Of a DNA stretch of 64,000 nt, positions 1-40,720 are shown piece by piece. Made by a program: the position numbers and the translations under genes. A model generated the notes under the pieces. That model did no database searches. It saw nothing but the letters and a program-made list of their open reading frames with translations, and was not told where the DNA came from. Source of the DNA: Dictyophora rubrovolvata (Eukaryota; Basidiomycota; Agaricomycetes; Phallales; Phallaceae). The stretch spans positions 1,364,001 to 1,428,000 of the forward strand of contig CP114120.1 in the NCBI GenBank assembly GCA_029959195.1, written 5' to 3'. Every line of letters starts with the position of its first letter. The stretch's first letter is position 1.

Positions 1-1925
1 GAGATGAAATACGTTCCGAAAGTCTCCTAATGTTCGGCAACTTGCTGCATTGTGCAAGGGAGAAAATTGGAGATTGCAAAATTGAAAACCGAGCCAGCTG
101 TGCTTTTGTATGGTAAGGCTGATGACTCAAGTTTTGGATCTGAAAGCATTCTAATAGTGGGTCAGTCAAGCGAAAGAAGATCGAGCGGTATGCTGTGTAC
201 AAAACATATGTCGCTCCCGCGATGAAGGTACGAGTTGACCCGATCGCTAAAGCTGAAGCGCCAAGTATTCGTATCTTCAGACTTCTTAAAGAAAGTATTC
301 TTTTTTATAAGAATGCTGTCCGAGTTTTACGCAAGTTCTGATCATAATGATTATCTCGATTGCGTCGTCCTTTTCAATCTTGACAAAGACTCACGTGTCC
401 TTAATTCGAGAAGCGAGTCAGTTGCGCCCCGCCAACGCAAGTTTGCCCATCCTCAGATATTTCAACCGAGTTGTCTACTATCCCGAGGTTCCATAAATAA
501 CAAAAACGTTATATACTGGGTGGAGCCAGTGAACAGTGTTATGTCTGGCAAATTAAATATTCAGCCGAGATTTCCAACACGGCCTGGAATGTTTGGGGAA
601 TAGTATGCTGAGAACATGATGGCTCCAATAATAACGTCACTGAATCATCCGATATATATAACATATCGGTTTATTCCAATATCGGTGTAAAACCGGGATG
701 ACGAGAACAATCATCTCAACCACTTCCGAATTCACCTGCTCAGCCGGTCTGATGACCGTCCGTGTCATCCCCCGACCGATAGAGTTTTAGCAGCAGGCTC
801 TCATAATAAATACTAGGTACAAGCTTTGGCTTGGTGCATATGACTAACCAATTTAGTTCCCAGACGCATCAGATGATTGTTCACCTGGTTCCGTGTCTGC
901 TGATGACCAGTGATGACCATTGGCCATGACCACGCCGCAAGAGTCACGAACAATATATAATGCTTACAAAAACGGTCTAGTTGACAGTTGGGCTATTTAA
1001 GAGACCTTGAGGTATTTATTTGTCGAGAACCGCCAAATATATTATAGCCCATTAGACCGGTTTGCAAAGATGAAATACATGTGTATGGTTGTCCAAACCT
1101 CTCACGATTGCCACGCCGTCATTCGGATTCAGTCTGGCTACATATGTATCTGCAACCAAATTTCCTGTAGAAGGAATATAGGCGTGATAGCGGGACAAAT
1201 AAATATACATAGACTGAACACGCGCATATATACACAGAAGATGAGATCTGTTTTTTGTGCGCCACATCAAAGTTCCGACGCCGTTCCGTCAGTGGGAAAG
1301 CACTCACAAAACAATTGCCCTGTGCTTTCTTCGAATATCCGGATCAGCCACCTAGGCACCTTTTTCCGCAGTTGGTGGACCGGTGAATACATATACATTC
1401 ACCTTTGAAATGAATTACAAGCCAATACTATTTAAGAACAGGTATGTATAATACCCGCAGCCCATTCAGTGCCGATACGATGGAGATATAATTCGATATC
1501 GGCGCATATGCGCACGGACGCCCTGAAAGATGTCATAACTGAATTAGAAAGTTCTCGTGAATTCAATGGCGAGCGTTTCGTTTTTGCGCTAAGATTGAAG
1601 GAATGGGACAGGCCTCGTGACTACTCTTAATCGAGCGAGAATACTATTAGCCCGGGTCTATCGAAGTGGCAAAACGTGCGATACAGTAATACAATACATA
1701 AATCATAAAAAAAAATATCTCATTAGGAAATGAAAAAAGATGGTAATAGTTTTTGGGTTACAACATCATGAGAAGAATAGGCAAAGCAGTGCGCAGTATC
1801 AAAACAACAGAACAGCAGTACTTGTCAAAGGTGGGGGGTAGATGTTTGTTTTTTGCTATGCAAACAAAAGTTAGAAAGAACAAAAGATACATGTGTGGTG
1901 AACGACATACGGGCAACAAGCTCAT
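1..1925. other. AT-rich region without a supportable gene
   Basis: I find no gene I can defend here. The longest open frame is on the plus strand at 235-603 (122 codons). It has no recognisable domain, no signal peptide and no splice context that extends it, so it may be chance. Several GATGACC-like words recur loosely between about 730 and 930 but do not form a clean repeat. The region lies downstream (3' side) of the first minus-strand peptide gene. Confidence 0.5.
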
Positions 1926-2130
1926 TCACCAACTGGGTGCAGAGATGGATTGACGTGTGTCGAGAGCTGTGTATTGATAACACAAATCAGTCAGAGCAAA
2001 CGAAGGTTTATAGGCCGCAGATAAGCAACTCACCATTGCTCTGGTCATCGATGAGGACTATAGGAGCTGCTGAAACCAACTCTGCGAGCGTAAGAGCTGC
2101 TAAAGCAATCCAAACGGCAAAACGCTGCAT
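1926..2130 (-). CDS. Small secreted peptide precursor A (45 aa, two exons, C-terminal Trp)
   Basis: Exon 1 is 2130-2034 and exon 2 is 1966-1926. They are joined across a 67-nt phase-1 intron (GTGAGT...ACACAG) with a CTGAC-type branch site. The 45-aa product starts MQRFAVWIALAALTLAELVS, a classical signal peptide with likely cleavage at VSA/AP. The mature part begins Ala-Pro and ends LDTRQSISAPSW directly before TGA. No cysteines, no CaaX box. A TTTAAAAAGG TATA-like element lies about 110 bp upstream. The gene shares strand, intron phase and position, precursor size and the A-[PS]-[PS]-W ending with the genes at 3345-3547 and 5428-5615, which is the strongest support that it is real. Function unknown. 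By architecture it could be a secreted signalling, effector or RiPP-type peptide, but that is inference. It is too short for ordinary ORF cut-offs. Confidence 0.68.
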
Positions 2131-2238
2131 CACTATGTCACTATGCACCTAGGGGATTTCACAAAGACTGAAAGAATAGAGTGCGAGCAGAGGAGTGAGA
2201 CAATAAGCGGGGAGCGTCGAATAGAAAATCGCCTGGCA

Positions 2239-2250
2239 TCCTTTTTAAAT
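2239..2250 (-). promoter_or_regulatory. TATA-like element upstream of peptide gene A
   Basis: On the minus strand this reads ATTTAAAAAG, about 110 bp before the ATG of peptide gene A. It is followed by a pyrimidine-rich stretch typical of fungal transcription start regions. Positional evidence only. Confidence 0.35.
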
Positions 2251-3344
2251 GCTTCAGTGCAAAGAACGATCATTTTTACAGCTGTGTACTAGCGCCAAGG
2301 TTGACTAAACGCGCCACAGACGCCGGGTTTAGCGCCAGCCACATCCGAGATTTCCATTTGGGCAGCGTTTTCTCACTTCCTCCTCAAGTTATACATATCT
2401 TGTATCAGAAATTTTTTTCCTTTGCCTGACGCCCTGTAGGATCAGGAGTGTAATCTCCCTCTTTCTCTGAACACGATCGATGCCGTCATTTTCATCTATG
2501 AAAGATCTTTCTTGCGGGCTGCTATCTGAAGCTGCGAAAATCTTGGGATTGGACCTTAATCTGAACAGTTTTCCAGTCGCCGTTGGCCTAACAAGCTTAA
2601 AAGGGCCGGCTAGCTCTTAAGGAAACGTGATCAAGTAGCGGAACAAGAACTCAGTGTAATCGGTCCTCCATGGAAGGCTATAGACAGACACCTTATAACT
2701 TGGAAGAAATAGGATCTAAAGTATGCTTCGCCAATATGCGGCTGCTACTGCCTCAGGTTCGCTATTATACATTCTGTGATTCTGCGTTCCTATGAGACCA
2801 TATCGAATTCCTTGGCTATGGACAGGGGCTTCGTGTGCTGATGTTTCTGCATACCCATTGCATGGTACTTTACGCACGTTTCATTAAGCATATGATTAAT
2901 TTTTGATCGACGTGGGCTTATAAACCCTTGGCAAGTGAGGAACAGGCGAGATATCCCGACAGAAAACAAGATTGTGTTTTTTTTCTTCTTTCGACTACGT
3001 ACTCAATATGAAGAAGATATACAGCAACCCTTCTACACTTCGACCATACATGTTGTTGTAAATTTATAACAAAGAAGACAACTGACAATAACCCCATCTT
3101 GGGTTAGGCCAGCCAGATTCGTCGGAAGGGAGGGATAGGGTGGGAGTGACCGAGCATTCGATAAACTTTAGGGTATACTCCGAATAACAGATAAAAGAGA
3201 AGAAAGTTCGAGGAGAAACCAAGAGACTCGCAAACGATTGTGATAAGGATAGATTCAACTTGATAGCAATTAAAACGTTACTTAAATAAAAAGCATCAAG
3301 TAGACTTACCAACAAAGGCCGTTTAGATAACATGGAATTCAACA
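2251..3344. other. Intergenic, no supported gene
   Basis: This 1.1-kb stretch separates peptide genes A and B. A plus-strand frame from 2480 (46 codons, starting MPSFSSMKDLSCG) and a minus-strand frame at 3064-3348 (94 codons) are open. The latter starts by overlapping the stop of peptide gene B (GCATGATG) and is hydrophobic, but contains a good GTAAGT donor inside. I regard both as chance or untranslated sequence. Confidence 0.4.
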
Positions 3345-3547
3345 TCATGCCTGATTCTCAGAAATTTGTGAGCGTTTCCAACTCGCCCCTCCTACACCGA
3401 CATCTGCGAAATGAAATTGACATAATATAAGATTAATGGGTAATGGCGAAGAAGCATGTGCTTACCACCCGGAGTCGGCATTGCGTCGACTTGAGCTAGG
3501 AGAACAGCTGCGACGAAAGAGACAAGGTATTTCACCGACAACTTCAT
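3345..3547 (-). CDS. Small secreted peptide precursor B (46 aa, two exons, ASW-Lys-Arg)
   Basis: Exon 1 is 3547-3466 and exon 2 is 3403-3345, with a 62-nt phase-1 intron (GTAAGC...TTCGCAG). The 46-aa product starts MKLSVKYLVSFVAAVLLAQV, a signal peptide with likely cleavage after VDA. The mature part begins Met-Pro-Thr-Pro, runs through GDVGVGGASW and continues KRSQISENQA before TGA. The A-S-W matches the C-terminal tryptophan motif of its two neighbours. Here it is followed by Lys-Arg, so Kex2 cleavage plus Kex1 trimming would give the same free C-terminal Trp (family knowledge applied by inference). A TATATAAG-type box sits about 50 bp before the ATG. No cysteines and no known domain. Confidence 0.66.
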
Positions 3548-3591
3548 GGCTGTAGTTATAGTGTCCGTCAGGGTGCAGCAGCGAGGGGAGC

Positions 3592-3600
3592 TCTTATATG
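3592..3600 (-). promoter_or_regulatory. TATA-like element upstream of peptide gene B
   Basis: Minus-strand reading CATATAAGAG, about 50 bp upstream of the peptide B start codon. This spacing is reasonable for a fungal TATA box driving a highly expressed small secreted protein. Positional evidence only. Confidence 0.4.
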
Positions 3601-5427
3601 TACGTGCTTACCATCGTCACAACATACCGTCACAGTCAGCTCAGCCGGGGGTGCCTGACCGTAACGTCTCAAGATCTGAATACATAGCTCCACTTTTGCC
3701 CCTGTTATTTATTATTATCATATCACGGCGAGAGAGAAAAAAGCATTTTGCCAAGGTATATGTACCGTGTCAAGATATGTTACTGACGATGGCGTTTCAA
3801 GTCATGGTGGTAAATTATAATAGTGCATTTGCCCAGGAACGACGAATGTCCAGAGAATTTTTTAAGATTCCGGCCAAGAATACTCCGTGTTGTCCCTTGC
3901 GCAGTATGCCCGAAAGAAACAAGCTTGAGTATGTATTATCAGCCTTGCGGATATCATCTAAAATGGATGTGTCAATCATTGCTACGCAGCAATTTGCGGG
4001 TCCTTATTTTCAAAAAGGACTCAAGGCTCAGGGCATACTGCACCCATATCCAAGTAAGTCTGAGACGGTATTGGGTTTCCTCTCGACCAAAATTTTATTT
4101 TTATAAGGAACGTTCCATGGTGGGTTTTTTTTATTTCGAGTTCACAAGCTTATATCTTTACTTGGAAACGCAGGGAACTACACAATAGGAATGGTATCGT
4201 CGGGTACTATGTGCTAGAGGGCCAGTACCGGTGATTCAGCCGAAGTAAGCACGCGCTACAAAGGCGTCATGCCGTGAATGGGAAATGGCCAAAAAAAATT
4301 GGCCTGCTAAAGCGTGCTACATGGCTAACTGTACCTAATCCCTAAAAGGACTCGACCCAAGCAGGTTCCTTCCAGGTTGAATCAGACTGACGTTGGAGAG
4401 CGTAATAAGCTTCTGCGAAAGCTCCGTCGGGCCTATTAGATCATATTGTGCATGAACGGGCCCATTGCACAATGCATCACTATCTCCCTTTTCTGGACGG
4501 GGAAAGGTTTTTGCGACAATTAATATCCATTACATATGGTACAACCAAGCCGAGCTCATGATTAGCGGATCAACGTTAACGTTCAATTTAGCCCTGGGCC
4601 TGAAGCCAAGTATCCAGCCCACCCCAAATAACAACCTGTAACATCGTTGGAACTTACTTAAGTAATCAGCTCCTGCACTGCCCATGTCTCTCGTCAATCC
4701 AACTCCAGATGAACAGTCTCATTTCAAGAATTCAAGAATTTTCTATATAACAGATCCTCGTTATCACCGGTGACGCTGCGGCAAAGGTCCTCCTTTTCTC
4801 TAAGTCGGTCTTAGGCTAGGCGATGATTTGGAATACGACATGTGTAAACCACATCGAACCAATCTTGATGTCTTTGTTTAAAAACTGGGAGTTGCTCCGA
4901 CCCACCGCTGACTGGCGAATGACTTTTTTGTCAGCCGAATAATCGCGTTGAAAAATCCAGGAACACCATGTTTAGGTATACGCTTGTTCTCTAAATGGAT
5001 CCTTCTCACCCGGAGAATGCCGGAAGACAGGTGACAGCGGCGCTGGCCCACAAGCGTGCTTCGTTGTGTTGAGGTGAAATCTCTCCGTTGCCACTGAATG
5101 AATTCCAATCTTACATGTGTTCCTCAGACATTATCTTGATCCAAGCAAAAATAGATCCTGAGCAGCAGTCTACATTCACTGAATAATAGCACAATCAATA
5201 TACAGTATGCCATACTACCCAAGAATCGGAAGGCTCCCTGAGAAAAGTCCATAAACAGTAAATAAAAAAAAAAGAGCAAGGGCAAAGCAAGCTGAACGAA
5301 AACATTATTTGGCCGGGGTAAAGCTAAGAAAAAATTGAAGATATCAGCCGCCGCAGCGCAGCTAGCGAGTTACGGTTGACTCACACGATTCGCATATTGA
5401 CAACAATGAAAAGTCGAGTATCCCCAT
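3601..5427. other. Intergenic, no supported gene
   Basis: About 1.8 kb between peptide genes B and C. Plus-strand frames at 3546-4106 and 3823-4188 are open, but their composition looks non-coding and the first runs antisense through the peptide B promoter. A minus-strand frame at 4878-5108 is basic and unlike anything I know. A minus-strand mini-ORF at about 5211-5125 has a hydrophobic start but lacks the features of the peptide family. I searched both strands for a fourth W-stop member here and did not find one. Confidence 0.4.
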
Positions 5428-5615
5428 TTACCATGGAGGAGCGTCAACGAAGTCGCCGTCCCTGACGATAAGAGAGTCTGTTATCATGTTGGTGAGTCTC
5501 TTTCAAGTTCGACAGCAGTCAAGCGACGGGACGTACCAGGTTGGGCGACGGGAACTGCAATGCTCAATTGAGCAAGGACCAGAGTAATGAAGGTGGATAT
5601 TAACGAGAGACGCAT
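5428..5615 (-). CDS. Small secreted peptide precursor C (42 aa, two exons, C-terminal Trp)
   Basis: Exon 1 is 5615-5537 and exon 2 is 5477-5428, with a 59-nt phase-1 intron (GTACGT...ATAACAG). The 42-aa product starts MRLSLISTFITLVLAQLSIA, a signal peptide. The mature part begins Val-Pro-Val-Ala and ends LIVRDGDFVDAPPW directly before TAA. Intron phase, intron position relative to the signal peptide, product size and the Ala-Pro-Pro-Trp ending match peptide genes A and B on the same strand. A TATATAAATTGG element lies about 145 bp upstream. There are no cysteines or known domains. An Arg nine residues before the motif aligns loosely with the Arg in peptide A. Function unknown. Confidence 0.68.
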
Positions 5616-5753
5616 TTTTTTTTCTTTTGACGAGGAATCAACTCAAAAATTCAAACCAGTGGGGCGGGTTACACGTTGGAAGGACGGATGGCTCTTTAGA
5701 GTGGGGGAGGAGATGTGTGAAGGTCCAGGTGCTTTGCCTTGACTCAGAAGAAG

Positions 5754-5766
5754 CCAATTTATATAT
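5754..5766 (-). promoter_or_regulatory. TATA box upstream of peptide gene C
   Basis: Minus-strand reading CATATATAAATTGG, about 145 bp before the ATG of peptide gene C. It is followed by C/T-rich sequence and an A-rich leader ending right at the start codon. It is the best TATA match of the three peptide genes. Confidence 0.45.
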
Positions 5767-6834
5767 GAAAAGAGCGAAGAATCGCTGATCATCTCATGGT
5801 GATAATTATAATATACCTCAGGTCTCAATATCAATACCAGTGCACTTGATGTGGAAAGCCTTTTGAAAATCCATCATCGATACATCCATTGGCGTCAGGT
5901 ACGGGAATCTAACTAAGAAAAGACTTGTCCAGATAGGCTAGGCCGTCGCCGAAAGGCGTCTACTTCTCCGCTGCAGTGTAAATCGAAAACCCTTGTATGT
6001 AAAGACTATTGAAACGGTTCAAACGATAGTCAGGGTACTATGGTTTCCCTTCGTTACTTTTTCTATTTTTTTCATTATTGTGGCGTGGAACGGCTATCTG
6101 GGGAGAGCTTGGCTGAGAGCAGGCCCCTCCCGGCTACTATTTTAAAATAATAAACAGGCACCTCAGTCGACTTTTTGAATTTCCATACTTCCTACTGCGT
6201 TACTGCGGAACCCCCAAGGACTCCTGGTAATAAATACAGGCACTGCGCAGGGCAACACACAATCAGAAATAACTTCTCAAATATTATTTCGTCAGATTAT
6301 TTAGCAGCTTAAGAACCTTTAAGAATCCGTACCCATGTATAAAATATTAATCCAATGCAGATGGAAATTCCTCCCGTGGTCGAAATATCCTTGTCTTCGC
6401 TCTCTGGGGTCTGAAGGAGGGAATGTCCCACCTACTGACGCCATTGGTTGCGAAATAAGAATGTGGTCTTAATTCTCACCCTAAACAATATTTATAGGAT
6501 GTTATAAAATTATCACAGCTTGGCTGTCTTATCATCATGGCCAATGATTGAAAAATCTCCCTTCTGTTATTGGTTGGTCCAACCGCCATGAGCACCATGA
6601 TCCATCGGAACATGACTGATCATTAGCTTAGGTATCCAGTGTTCAACTTAGGATTCTCAGAAGCGCATGGTGAAAAGATGGTCCAAATTATGACGATTTT
6701 GCTACGTGAATGTCGGACATTTCTTGAATCGACAGTTCACCGCTTTCTCTCAAAGCTTATGCAGTTTATAGCTATTCAAAATGTGATAATGTTACAATAT
6801 CATGATGGTCTTGTGACTCAACTCTTTATTCTAC
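5767..6834. other. Intergenic, no supported gene
   Basis: About 1 kb between the quinone oxidoreductase 3' end and peptide gene C. A plus-strand frame at 6639-6896 overlaps the last exon of the oxidoreductase on the other strand and is a shadow. A GCA-TGG-TGA (Ala-Trp-stop) occurs on the plus strand near 6666, but no signal-peptide exon precedes it. Confidence 0.4.
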
Positions 6835-39068: not shown

Positions 39069-39139
39069 CCAGTCGTCGTAACAAAACAAATATTGTGTCT
39101 TGACCAGTTGACGTACATCGGGCGTTATCAGTTGGAACC

Positions 39140-40720
39140 ATGAGGATCCTCAATTTCTGCTTATCTTCGATGATACTTGCTTGTAGTATCATAGCTACTC
39201 CAGTTCAAATTAACGATTCGCCAGTTACTCTCCCCGTAGCAGTTCGAGTCAACGCACAAGGTGGACCTCTCGCTCTAATTAACAGAGATCGAGCTCGCTT
39301 CCAAGCCATGGCCGTTCGAGGGCTTGCCAAATTCAATGGGAATAATACGGATATTCCCGTTCCTGTCGATGACAGTGGAGTACGTCTGTGTTTGATGAGA
39401 TATGTCTCTTTTAACAGCTTGTTTTCTTCAGCAACTCTATCTTGCTAGTGTCGGTATTGGAGGCGGAAATTACTCCGTTATTGTCGACACTGGAAGCTCA
39501 AATACATGGATTGGGGCGAATAAGCCATATGTTCCCGGTCCCCAGTCTGTAAACACTGGGATGGCGGTTGGCATAACTTATGGCAGTGGGGGTTTTATAG
39601 GAGAAGAATGCAAGTCTTTACCCTACATCATACCTAATATTATTCCTTACAGTCGATAGCAGACATTGACACTGTTTCTCTTGGACCTACGCAGTTCGTG
39701 CAATCCATCGGAGTTGCGAACGAATCTGCAGGATTCAATGGTAACTCCGATGTGGTTTTATGATAATATTGATTATTCCTATGTAATAGGTCTTGATGGG
39801 ATCCTTGGACTTGGCCCAGATGACTTGACTACAGTTTCAACAAAGTCCGGACAAGTCATACCCACCGTAACAGATAACTTGGCCGAGCAAGGAATTACCG
39901 GGGCACGGACTGTTGGAATCTCCTTCGTACCGTCAGATTCAGCCGGCACCCCCAATGGTCAACTGGACTTTGGCGGCCCGAATCCGTCAAAGTTTATTGG
40001 TAATATTACGTTTACACCGAAGACGACGACAGCACCTGCATCAGAATATTGGGGTATTAACCAGACGATAACGTGAGTGTCAGAGTCAGATACTACAAAA
40101 GCTACCGAAACCATTTACGTCAATTTAAGATATGGCGATGCCCGAGAACAAGTGCTCTCACCTACATCTGGTTTTGTGGACACAGGTTTTATTTTGTGCC
40201 CTTTCGTGAAGTCATTGCTGAAAAAATTGTCCAGGCACAACATTACTATACATCGCTAGCGATGCGTTTGAAAAATACCAGTCCGAAACAGGAGCTACTT
40301 TGGATGAAACAACTGGTCTTTTGACAATTAATAACACGGACGGCTTAAGAAGCTTGTTCTTCAACATTGGTGGCGTACGACCTTATTTTTTTACGGTTGA
40401 AAGAATGGCGACTTATTCCCTATTAGCAAGAATTTGAATTTACGCCCAATGCCCAAATCTGGCCAACGAGTATGAATACACTTGTCGGAGGATCCCCAAA
40501 TACCACATACCTTGTTGTGAACAATATAGGGACACCCACCGGGTCAGGGGTAGACTTCGTCAATGGATTCGTTTTTCTGTATGCTTTTTCCTCTTTAAGT
40601 GGATTGGTCTTCGGTCTTCTAATCATGCACGGTAGCCAACGTTTCTACACCATATTTGATTCGGACAGTTCTACAGTTGGTTTTGCCAACACTGCGTATA
40701 CTCTGGACGCTGTTAGTTGA
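39140..40720 (+). CDS. Secreted aspartic protease (pepsin family A1)
   Basis: Start at 39140: signal peptide MRILNFCLSSMILACSIIAT. A short propeptide precedes the catalytic domain. The first catalytic Asp is in NYSVIVDTGSSNTWIGA. The flap region reads VGITYGSGGFIGEE, spliced through a GC-AG intron to YIDTVSLGPTQFVQSIGVAN. GLDGILGLGPDDLTTVST and NGQLDFGGPNPSKFIGNITF follow. The second catalytic site reads SGFVDTGTTLLYIASDAF once a GT-AG intron at about 40186-40231 is removed. The C-terminus is FYTIFDSDSSTVGFANTAYT, ending LDAVS at 40720. Both DTG motifs are intact, so it should be active, most likely as an extracellular protease used for nutrient acquisition. Several introns of about 50-60 nt. 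Confidence 0.92.
39610..39662 (+). other. GC-AG intron in the aspartic protease gene
   Basis: The donor is GCAAGT directly after GGAGAAGAAT and the acceptor is AGCAG before ACATTGACACTG. Removing these 53 nt gives GEEYIDTVSLG in frame, the sequence expected for this family. No GT donor nearby gives an in-frame join. Confidence 0.65.

Follow-up and report, generated by a model that had tools for sequence, protein, structure and literature searches.

What is encoded by three very small genes that lie in tandem on one strand of the genome of the stinkhorn Dictyophora rubrovolvata? They sit in a window of 64,000 nucleotides (GenBank assembly GCA_029959195.1, contig CP114120.1, positions 1,364,001 to 1,428,000) and had been predicted, from the sequence, to specify a new-looking family of secreted, Trp-ended micropeptide precursors. 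We consider it reasonably probable that these genes, here called g1, g2 and g3, are single-core precursors of linear secreted Trp-ended peptides of the same kind as those released from KEX2-processed repeat proteins (KEPs) in other mushrooms, and that the peptides are likely signals. The gene models, obtained by translation, are as follows.

g1: 1926..2130, minus strand; exons 2130-2034 and 1966-1926; intron 2033-1967, 67 nucleotides, phase 1; precursor MQRFAVWIALAALTLAELVSAAPIVLIDDQSNALDTRQSISAPSW, 45 residues, with the predicted core QSISAPSW behind a single Arg (the cut falling between TR and QSISAPSW).
g2: 3345..3547, minus strand; exons 3547-3466 and 3403-3345; intron 3465-3404, 62 nucleotides, phase 1; precursor MKLSVKYLVSFVAAVLLAQVDAMPTPGDVGVGGASWKRSQISENQA, 46 residues, with a predicted core ending in GGASW, followed by KR and an eight-residue tail, SQISENQA.
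g3: 5428..5615, minus strand; exons 5615-5537 and 5477-5428; intron 5536-5478, 59 nucleotides, phase 1; precursor MRLSLISTFITLVLAQLSIAVPVAQPDSLIVRDGDFVDAPPW, 42 residues, with the predicted core DGDFVDAPPW behind a single Arg.

Translation reproduced every coordinate, reading frame, precursor length, intron length and intron phase of the original prediction, and the shared architecture of three real-looking small secreted-peptide genes in an agaricomycete is supported. Each gene has one intron, of the GT-AG type, and Cys is absent from all three precursors. In g2, an alternative acceptor 12 nucleotides further in (giving an intron of 74 nucleotides) likewise keeps the frame open. All three precursors begin like a signal peptide, as assessed by hydropathy and the −3/−1 rule alone. 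Behind this start, and not behind a Kex2 site, stand XP/XA pairs, namely MPTP in g2 and VPVAQP in g3. The predicted cores are neutral or acidic, none being cationic, and contain neither Tyr nor repeats; in g1 and g3 the Trp lies directly before the stop codon. The genes had also been described as separately promoted. With this the following TATA-like elements, which are consensus matches only, are compatible, without proving that there are separate promoters.

g1 element TTTAAA: 2244..2249, minus strand, starting 119 nucleotides upstream of the ATG.
g2 element TATAAG: 3593..3598, minus strand, starting 51 nucleotides upstream of the ATG.
g3 element TATATA: 5760..5765, minus strand, starting 150 nucleotides upstream of the ATG.

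How often would such models arise by chance? A micro-gene scan was run that required a hydrophobic start with a cleavage-like site, a GTRNG donor, a CTNA branch-like site, a YAG acceptor and a short second exon; its thresholds were chosen post hoc, with g1–g3 in view, and the Trp motif was not part of the settings. The comparison set consisted of 65 loci from the same genome (212,507 bases, some mutually overlapping, the 20 kb to the left of the window included), 63 of which came from motif or family matches, so that the sample is non-random; loci of the window region (L001–L007, L024, L074 and L075) were excluded. Under strict settings, five ATGs passed in the window, three of them belonging to g1–g3, and none passed in the 65 other loci; order-3 Markov sequence gave 16 per 2.6 Mb when trained on positions 1-6500 and six per 2.6 Mb when trained on the window. 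Micro-genes with the Trp motif numbered zero both in the 212 kb of other loci and in the 5.2 Mb of Markov sequence. With loose settings, 8 ATGs of the window passed, against 26 of the other loci and 37 from 650 kb of Markov sequence; the corresponding counts without the branch-site requirement were 11, 45 and 65. In both cases g1–g3 were the only models with the Trp motif. The gene models together with their Trp motif are far above the null. Codon log-odds, a low-powered score, are positive in all three reading frames (5.7, 4.2 and 7.7).

To what do the cores belong? The original prediction knew of no named family with this signature and dismissed families with KR-separated repeats as the genes lack repeats. 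Yet Cys-free secreted peptides ending in APSW, PPSW and AADW have been published for basidiomycete KEPs (PMC9769878), the core signature is the same, and in g2 a KR still stands directly behind the Trp. Trp-ended cores are reported for many basidiomycete KEPs (PMC9769878). Thus, C. cinerea KEP 490115 produced in Pichia yielded QMRPPSW, QYKAPSW and pyro-QYKAPSW; KEP 447393 of the same fungus gave GPPAPSW and, from its non-repetitive C-terminus, DDDPEGPPAPSW in the culture supernatant; and peptides of Lentinula and Pleurotus (L. edodes KEP 2599, P. ostreatus KEP 1091723) end in AADW (PMC9769878). Several KEP products made in Pichia appear to stem from cleavage behind a single Arg (PMC9769878). 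The predicted g1 core behind its TR closely fits such published peptides as QYKAPSW and GPPAPSW. More broadly, and on the features predicted here, g1–g3 resemble the Trp-ended Agaricomycete KEPs, as far as these are described in PMC9769878, in having a signal peptide, linear cores with the same kinds of ending, cleavage after basic residues that apparently include single Arg, an N-terminal Gln in some cores, and X-Pro/X-Ala dipeptides.

A protein search supports this likeness. The probe was made of published KEP peptides and the AVPVAQP stretch of g3, and contained neither GASW nor APPW. It retrieved four proteins at E <= 10 among 8000 candidates scored. P0018 (Amanita thiersii, E 1.5e-6), with APDWRR, VQSWKR and PPSWRR, and P0020 (metagenomic, E 0.021), with GGPSWKR, PGASWRR and APPWRR, are clearly KEPs with Trp-ended cores; P0019 (E 2.3e-4) is a KEP of looser form, and P0021, with SPSW-KR repeats, is not significant (E 7.4). 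Both GASW, the end of the g2 core, and APPW, the end of g3, occur in P0020, although neither was in the probe. The three endings APSW, GASW and APPW all fall within a 17-member set of KEP xxxW ends, for which a random xxxW has a chance of about 0.006 each, the membership of g2 depending on a cut at its KR. The parts of g1–g3 behind the signal peptide were also aligned to P0018–P0021, in 12 comparisons with 1000 shuffles each and uncorrected p values. The best matches were g2 to P0021 (p 0.002) and g1 to P0021 (p 0.006), this protein itself having been retrieved only at E 7.4, followed by g2 to P0020 (p 0.006) and g3 to P0020 (p 0.011); one further comparison gave p = 0.083. The last W-RR of P0018 and P0020 leaves a short tail, just as the W-KR of g2 leaves its own.

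Several observations weigh against this assignment. First, the Trp motif, which had been claimed for all three genes and is indeed present in each, is internal in g2, where KR and eight residues follow it, so that its position relative to the C-terminus differs from that in g1 and g3; calling g2 Trp-ended therefore assumes a Kex2/Kex1-type cut at KR. In addition, this KR is the only dibasic site, g1 and g3 having a single Arg. Second, the genes show little relation to each other or to anything else. Their DNA similarity does not exceed that of shuffles (best p 0.07), so no DNA paralogy is seen, and their post-signal parts align with each other no better than p 0.06. Used directly as a protein search, their three-sequence alignment drew four candidates, none at E <= 10, and hence no homologue, while protein searches of the own genome with g1, g2 and g3 returned only the genes themselves. 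Third, the 17-member set is PSW-rich by construction, as it stems from a PSW-rich probe, and seven of the 12 alignments to KEPs have p > 0.1. Finally, exon 2 of g2 has a slightly negative codon score (−0.8). A composite KEP probe run against the own genome found nothing useful, in a search without a positive control, and Pfam gave no match at E <= 1 for g1–g3 or for P0018–P0020.

Are g1–g3 then KEPs themselves? One published survey, by Le Marquer et al., defines KEPs by at least four fragments (PMC6339444), and the criterion of another, by Umemura, is highly repeated sequences (PMC7329392). Known Trp-ended KEPs carry several cores separated by KR or RR, in P0018 and P0020 with DAEP-, EAEP- or EPEA-type Ste13 spacers, whereas the stinkhorn has one core per precursor and three neighbouring genes with differing cores. 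With one core each and a dibasic site only in g2, the genes lack a defining KEP feature, and we therefore say that they work like KEPs, not that they are KEPs. No description of tandem single-core packaging was found in the excerpts of the KEP literature that were available. It is the packaging format that differs from known Trp-ended KEPs; the core type is already known.

A repeat KEP of the usual format was sought in the genome (28,239,528 bases in 11 contigs) by means of patterns, each compared with a reversed control. A-[PS]-[PS]-W followed by TRR (stop or Trp) occurs at 28 places versus 34 in the control and marks a micro-gene only at g3; it misses g1 because AGY serines are invisible to the pattern. 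P-x-W-K-[RS] occurs at 54 places versus 47, and no repeat protein was seen by eye at the 30 of these that were inspected. W-K-[RS]-[DE]-A is commoner than in its control (23 versus 8), and the 15 of the 23 places with a true KR, on inspection, held no KEP and no peptide precursor. W-[RS]-[RS]-[DE]-[AP] occurs at 68 places versus 50. The nearest pair among the 91 places of these last two patterns is 7,654 bases apart, the 68 having been judged by spacing alone. For the spacer types searched, then, a multi-core Trp KEP was not seen in this genome, with the proviso that an intron within a core would hide it.

How might the peptides be made? Signal peptidase would remove the first ~20 residues in the endoplasmic reticulum. 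A Kex2-type protease would then cut after Arg, that is, after the single Arg of g1 and g3 and after the KR behind the Trp of g2, where Kex1 would trim off the basic residues. A Ste13-type dipeptidyl aminopeptidase may shorten the X-Pro/X-Ala starts, MP-TP in g2 and VP-VA-QP in g3. The released peptides would have about 8-10 residues (QSISAPSW, GDVGVGGASW and DGDFVDAPPW), and the N-terminal Gln of the first could become pyroglutamate. Most likely, in our view, each would diffuse and carry a signal to other hyphae or to neighbours, with one ligand per gene. A Kex2 P-domain match lies at position 2267883 of contig C1, and DPPIV_N is matched at two sites of contig C8 and, weakly, at one of contig C7; stops were counted within some of these matches and may be introns. 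The gene models, the motif that they share with measured KEP peptides and these domain matches are observed; expression, cleavage and release of the g1–g3 products, and their signalling role, are inferred from them.

Cryptococcus neoformans, which belongs to the Tremellomycetes, provides a peptide called Qsp1, whose precursor holds one core. It is the closest-looking functional precedent known to us. Qsp1 is an 11-residue secreted linear Trp-ended peptide that acts as a quorum signal; its pro-peptide leaves the cell, the wall protease Pqp1 matures it there, and the product acts once Opt1 has imported it (PMC7537855, PMC5959073). Like the proposed stinkhorn products, Qsp1 as described there is a linear, Trp-ended secreted peptide of a basidiomycete that comes from a secreted pro-peptide. 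Unlike them, it is matured by Pqp1, which is not shown in those accounts to be Kex2, and it comes from a different class. The likeness is one of the shared ending only. In our literature search no paper joined Qsp1 with the term ‘KEX2-processed’, and Qsp1 is not named in the main text of PMC9769878. The link between Qsp1 and KEP peptides is a proposal of this analysis, which the shared ending suggests.

Precursors of ascomycete alpha-pheromones share with g1–g3 the signal peptide and the Kex2/Ste13 route that is proposed here, and some are single-copy and some end in PCW (PMC6339444). In general they carry one to 16 repeated peptides, and their cores have, unlike those predicted here, a conserved Cys in one subgroup or PYGXPXG in another (PMC6339444).

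Three other families were considered and set aside. Basidiomycete CaaX pheromones have a C-terminal CaaX and no signal peptide, and are ruled out as g1–g3 have no Cys. MSDIN toxins, which are not known to have a signal peptide, are ruled out by the predicted signal peptide of g1–g3. Dikaritins, a group of ribosomally synthesized and post-translationally modified peptides of the ustiloxin type, have Tyr-containing repeated cores and DUF3328 genes nearby, and are improbable here given predicted cores without repeats and without Tyr; no DUF3328 (UstY) gene was found among the 20 of 95 open reading frames of the window that were scanned with Pfam.

Apart from single-core precursors of signals, three explanations deserve discussion. 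The one that fares best, although we regard it as unlikely, is that g1–g3 encode small secreted effectors or antimicrobial peptides with plants, animals or microbes as targets, and not inter-hyphal signals. The genes are of the secreted type, divergent and in tandem, and six C. cinerea KEP knockouts had no apparent axenic phenotype; a role in exchanges with the biotic environment is proposed in that study (PMC9769878). However, there is no Cys and no cationic core among the precursors, and Qsp1, the precedent named above, is a signal.

The artefact taken most seriously is a hidden third exon. In that case g1–g3 would be only the opening exons of longer genes for secreted proteins; the apparent Trp-stop would be a splice donor, with exon 2 ending at TG/GT and further exons beyond it. 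The Trp-stop does overlap GTRA in g3 (TGGTAA, GTAAAT) and in g1 (TGGTGA, GTGAAT); g3 has five YAG acceptors within 250 nucleotides, giving extensions of 6 to 79 residues, and g1 has one, with an extension of 10 residues. Yet these candidate donors lack the G at position 5 that all three used introns have, there is no donor at the Trp of g2, the 79-residue extension of g3 is a hydrophobic read across a T-rich stretch, and the Trp motif matches measured peptides (PMC9769878). Nor is there an above-null coding signal in the stretches between one gene and the next: the best codon score there is 5.4, whereas the null for 1.8 kb has its median at 5.8 and its 95% point at 8.4. The power of this test is low, as comparison regions score 10.2 (7.0-8.8 kb), 6.2 (phosphoesterase region) and 4.9 (45.4-47 kb). 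We judge a third exon to be quite unlikely.

That the reading frames are coincidental and g1–g3 are not genes at all is very unlikely, even though the models were picked by eye, the codon evidence is weak and direct homology search gave no orthologue, since three of the five strict ATGs of the window fall within 3.7 kb on one strand, all with phase 1 introns and the Trp motif, and Trp-ended models are absent from the other loci and the Markov sequence.

Between g2 and g3, window positions 4670-4816 (plus strand) have a 71% DNA match to 2080918-2081075 of contig C1, the start of a gene that resembles, by eye, an EH-domain (Ede1/Eps15-like) gene; stops break the frame in the window copy, which is probably a gene relic. 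To the right of g1–g3, positions 7000-64000 hold ordinary fungal genes, for RabGAP-TBC, multicopper oxidase, phosphoesterase, FMN-dependent dehydrogenase, Dopey, P450, mitochondrial L10 and GST proteins, an EF-G/EF-2-type GTPase (by eye probably Snu114) and the end of a calreticulin-family gene that lies below the Pfam cut-off. The closest match of the mitochondrial L10 gene (54418-55281), itself aside, is from Clathrus columnatus (73% identity), others being from Hysterangium, Ramaria and Sphaerobolus. An open frame at 39104-39445 (plus strand), with MRILNFCLSSMILACSIIATPVQINDSP and no Pfam match, resembles a first exon, belonging to a further gene for a secreted protein.

What would single-core precursors of Trp-ended peptides mean for the biology of these fungi? 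A wider reading, which we hold to be doubtful, is that Trp-ended linear peptides form one class of secreted signals throughout the basidiomycetes, that Qsp1 (...AYPW) and KEP peptides (...APSW) are known pieces of it, and that stinkhorns keep stand-alone single-core genes for such peptides. If true, repeat-based surveys miss the single-core format and gene callers may miss it too, and three unlike ligands in tandem would be separate channels, for example for mycelial density, fruiting and neighbour recognition. The surveys cited above demand repeats, which leaves a blind spot, and fungi may have more such peptides than have been counted. Compared with multi-core precursors, single-core genes are also simpler to delete, to express and to synthesise, which could make the function of Trp-ended KEP peptides testable.

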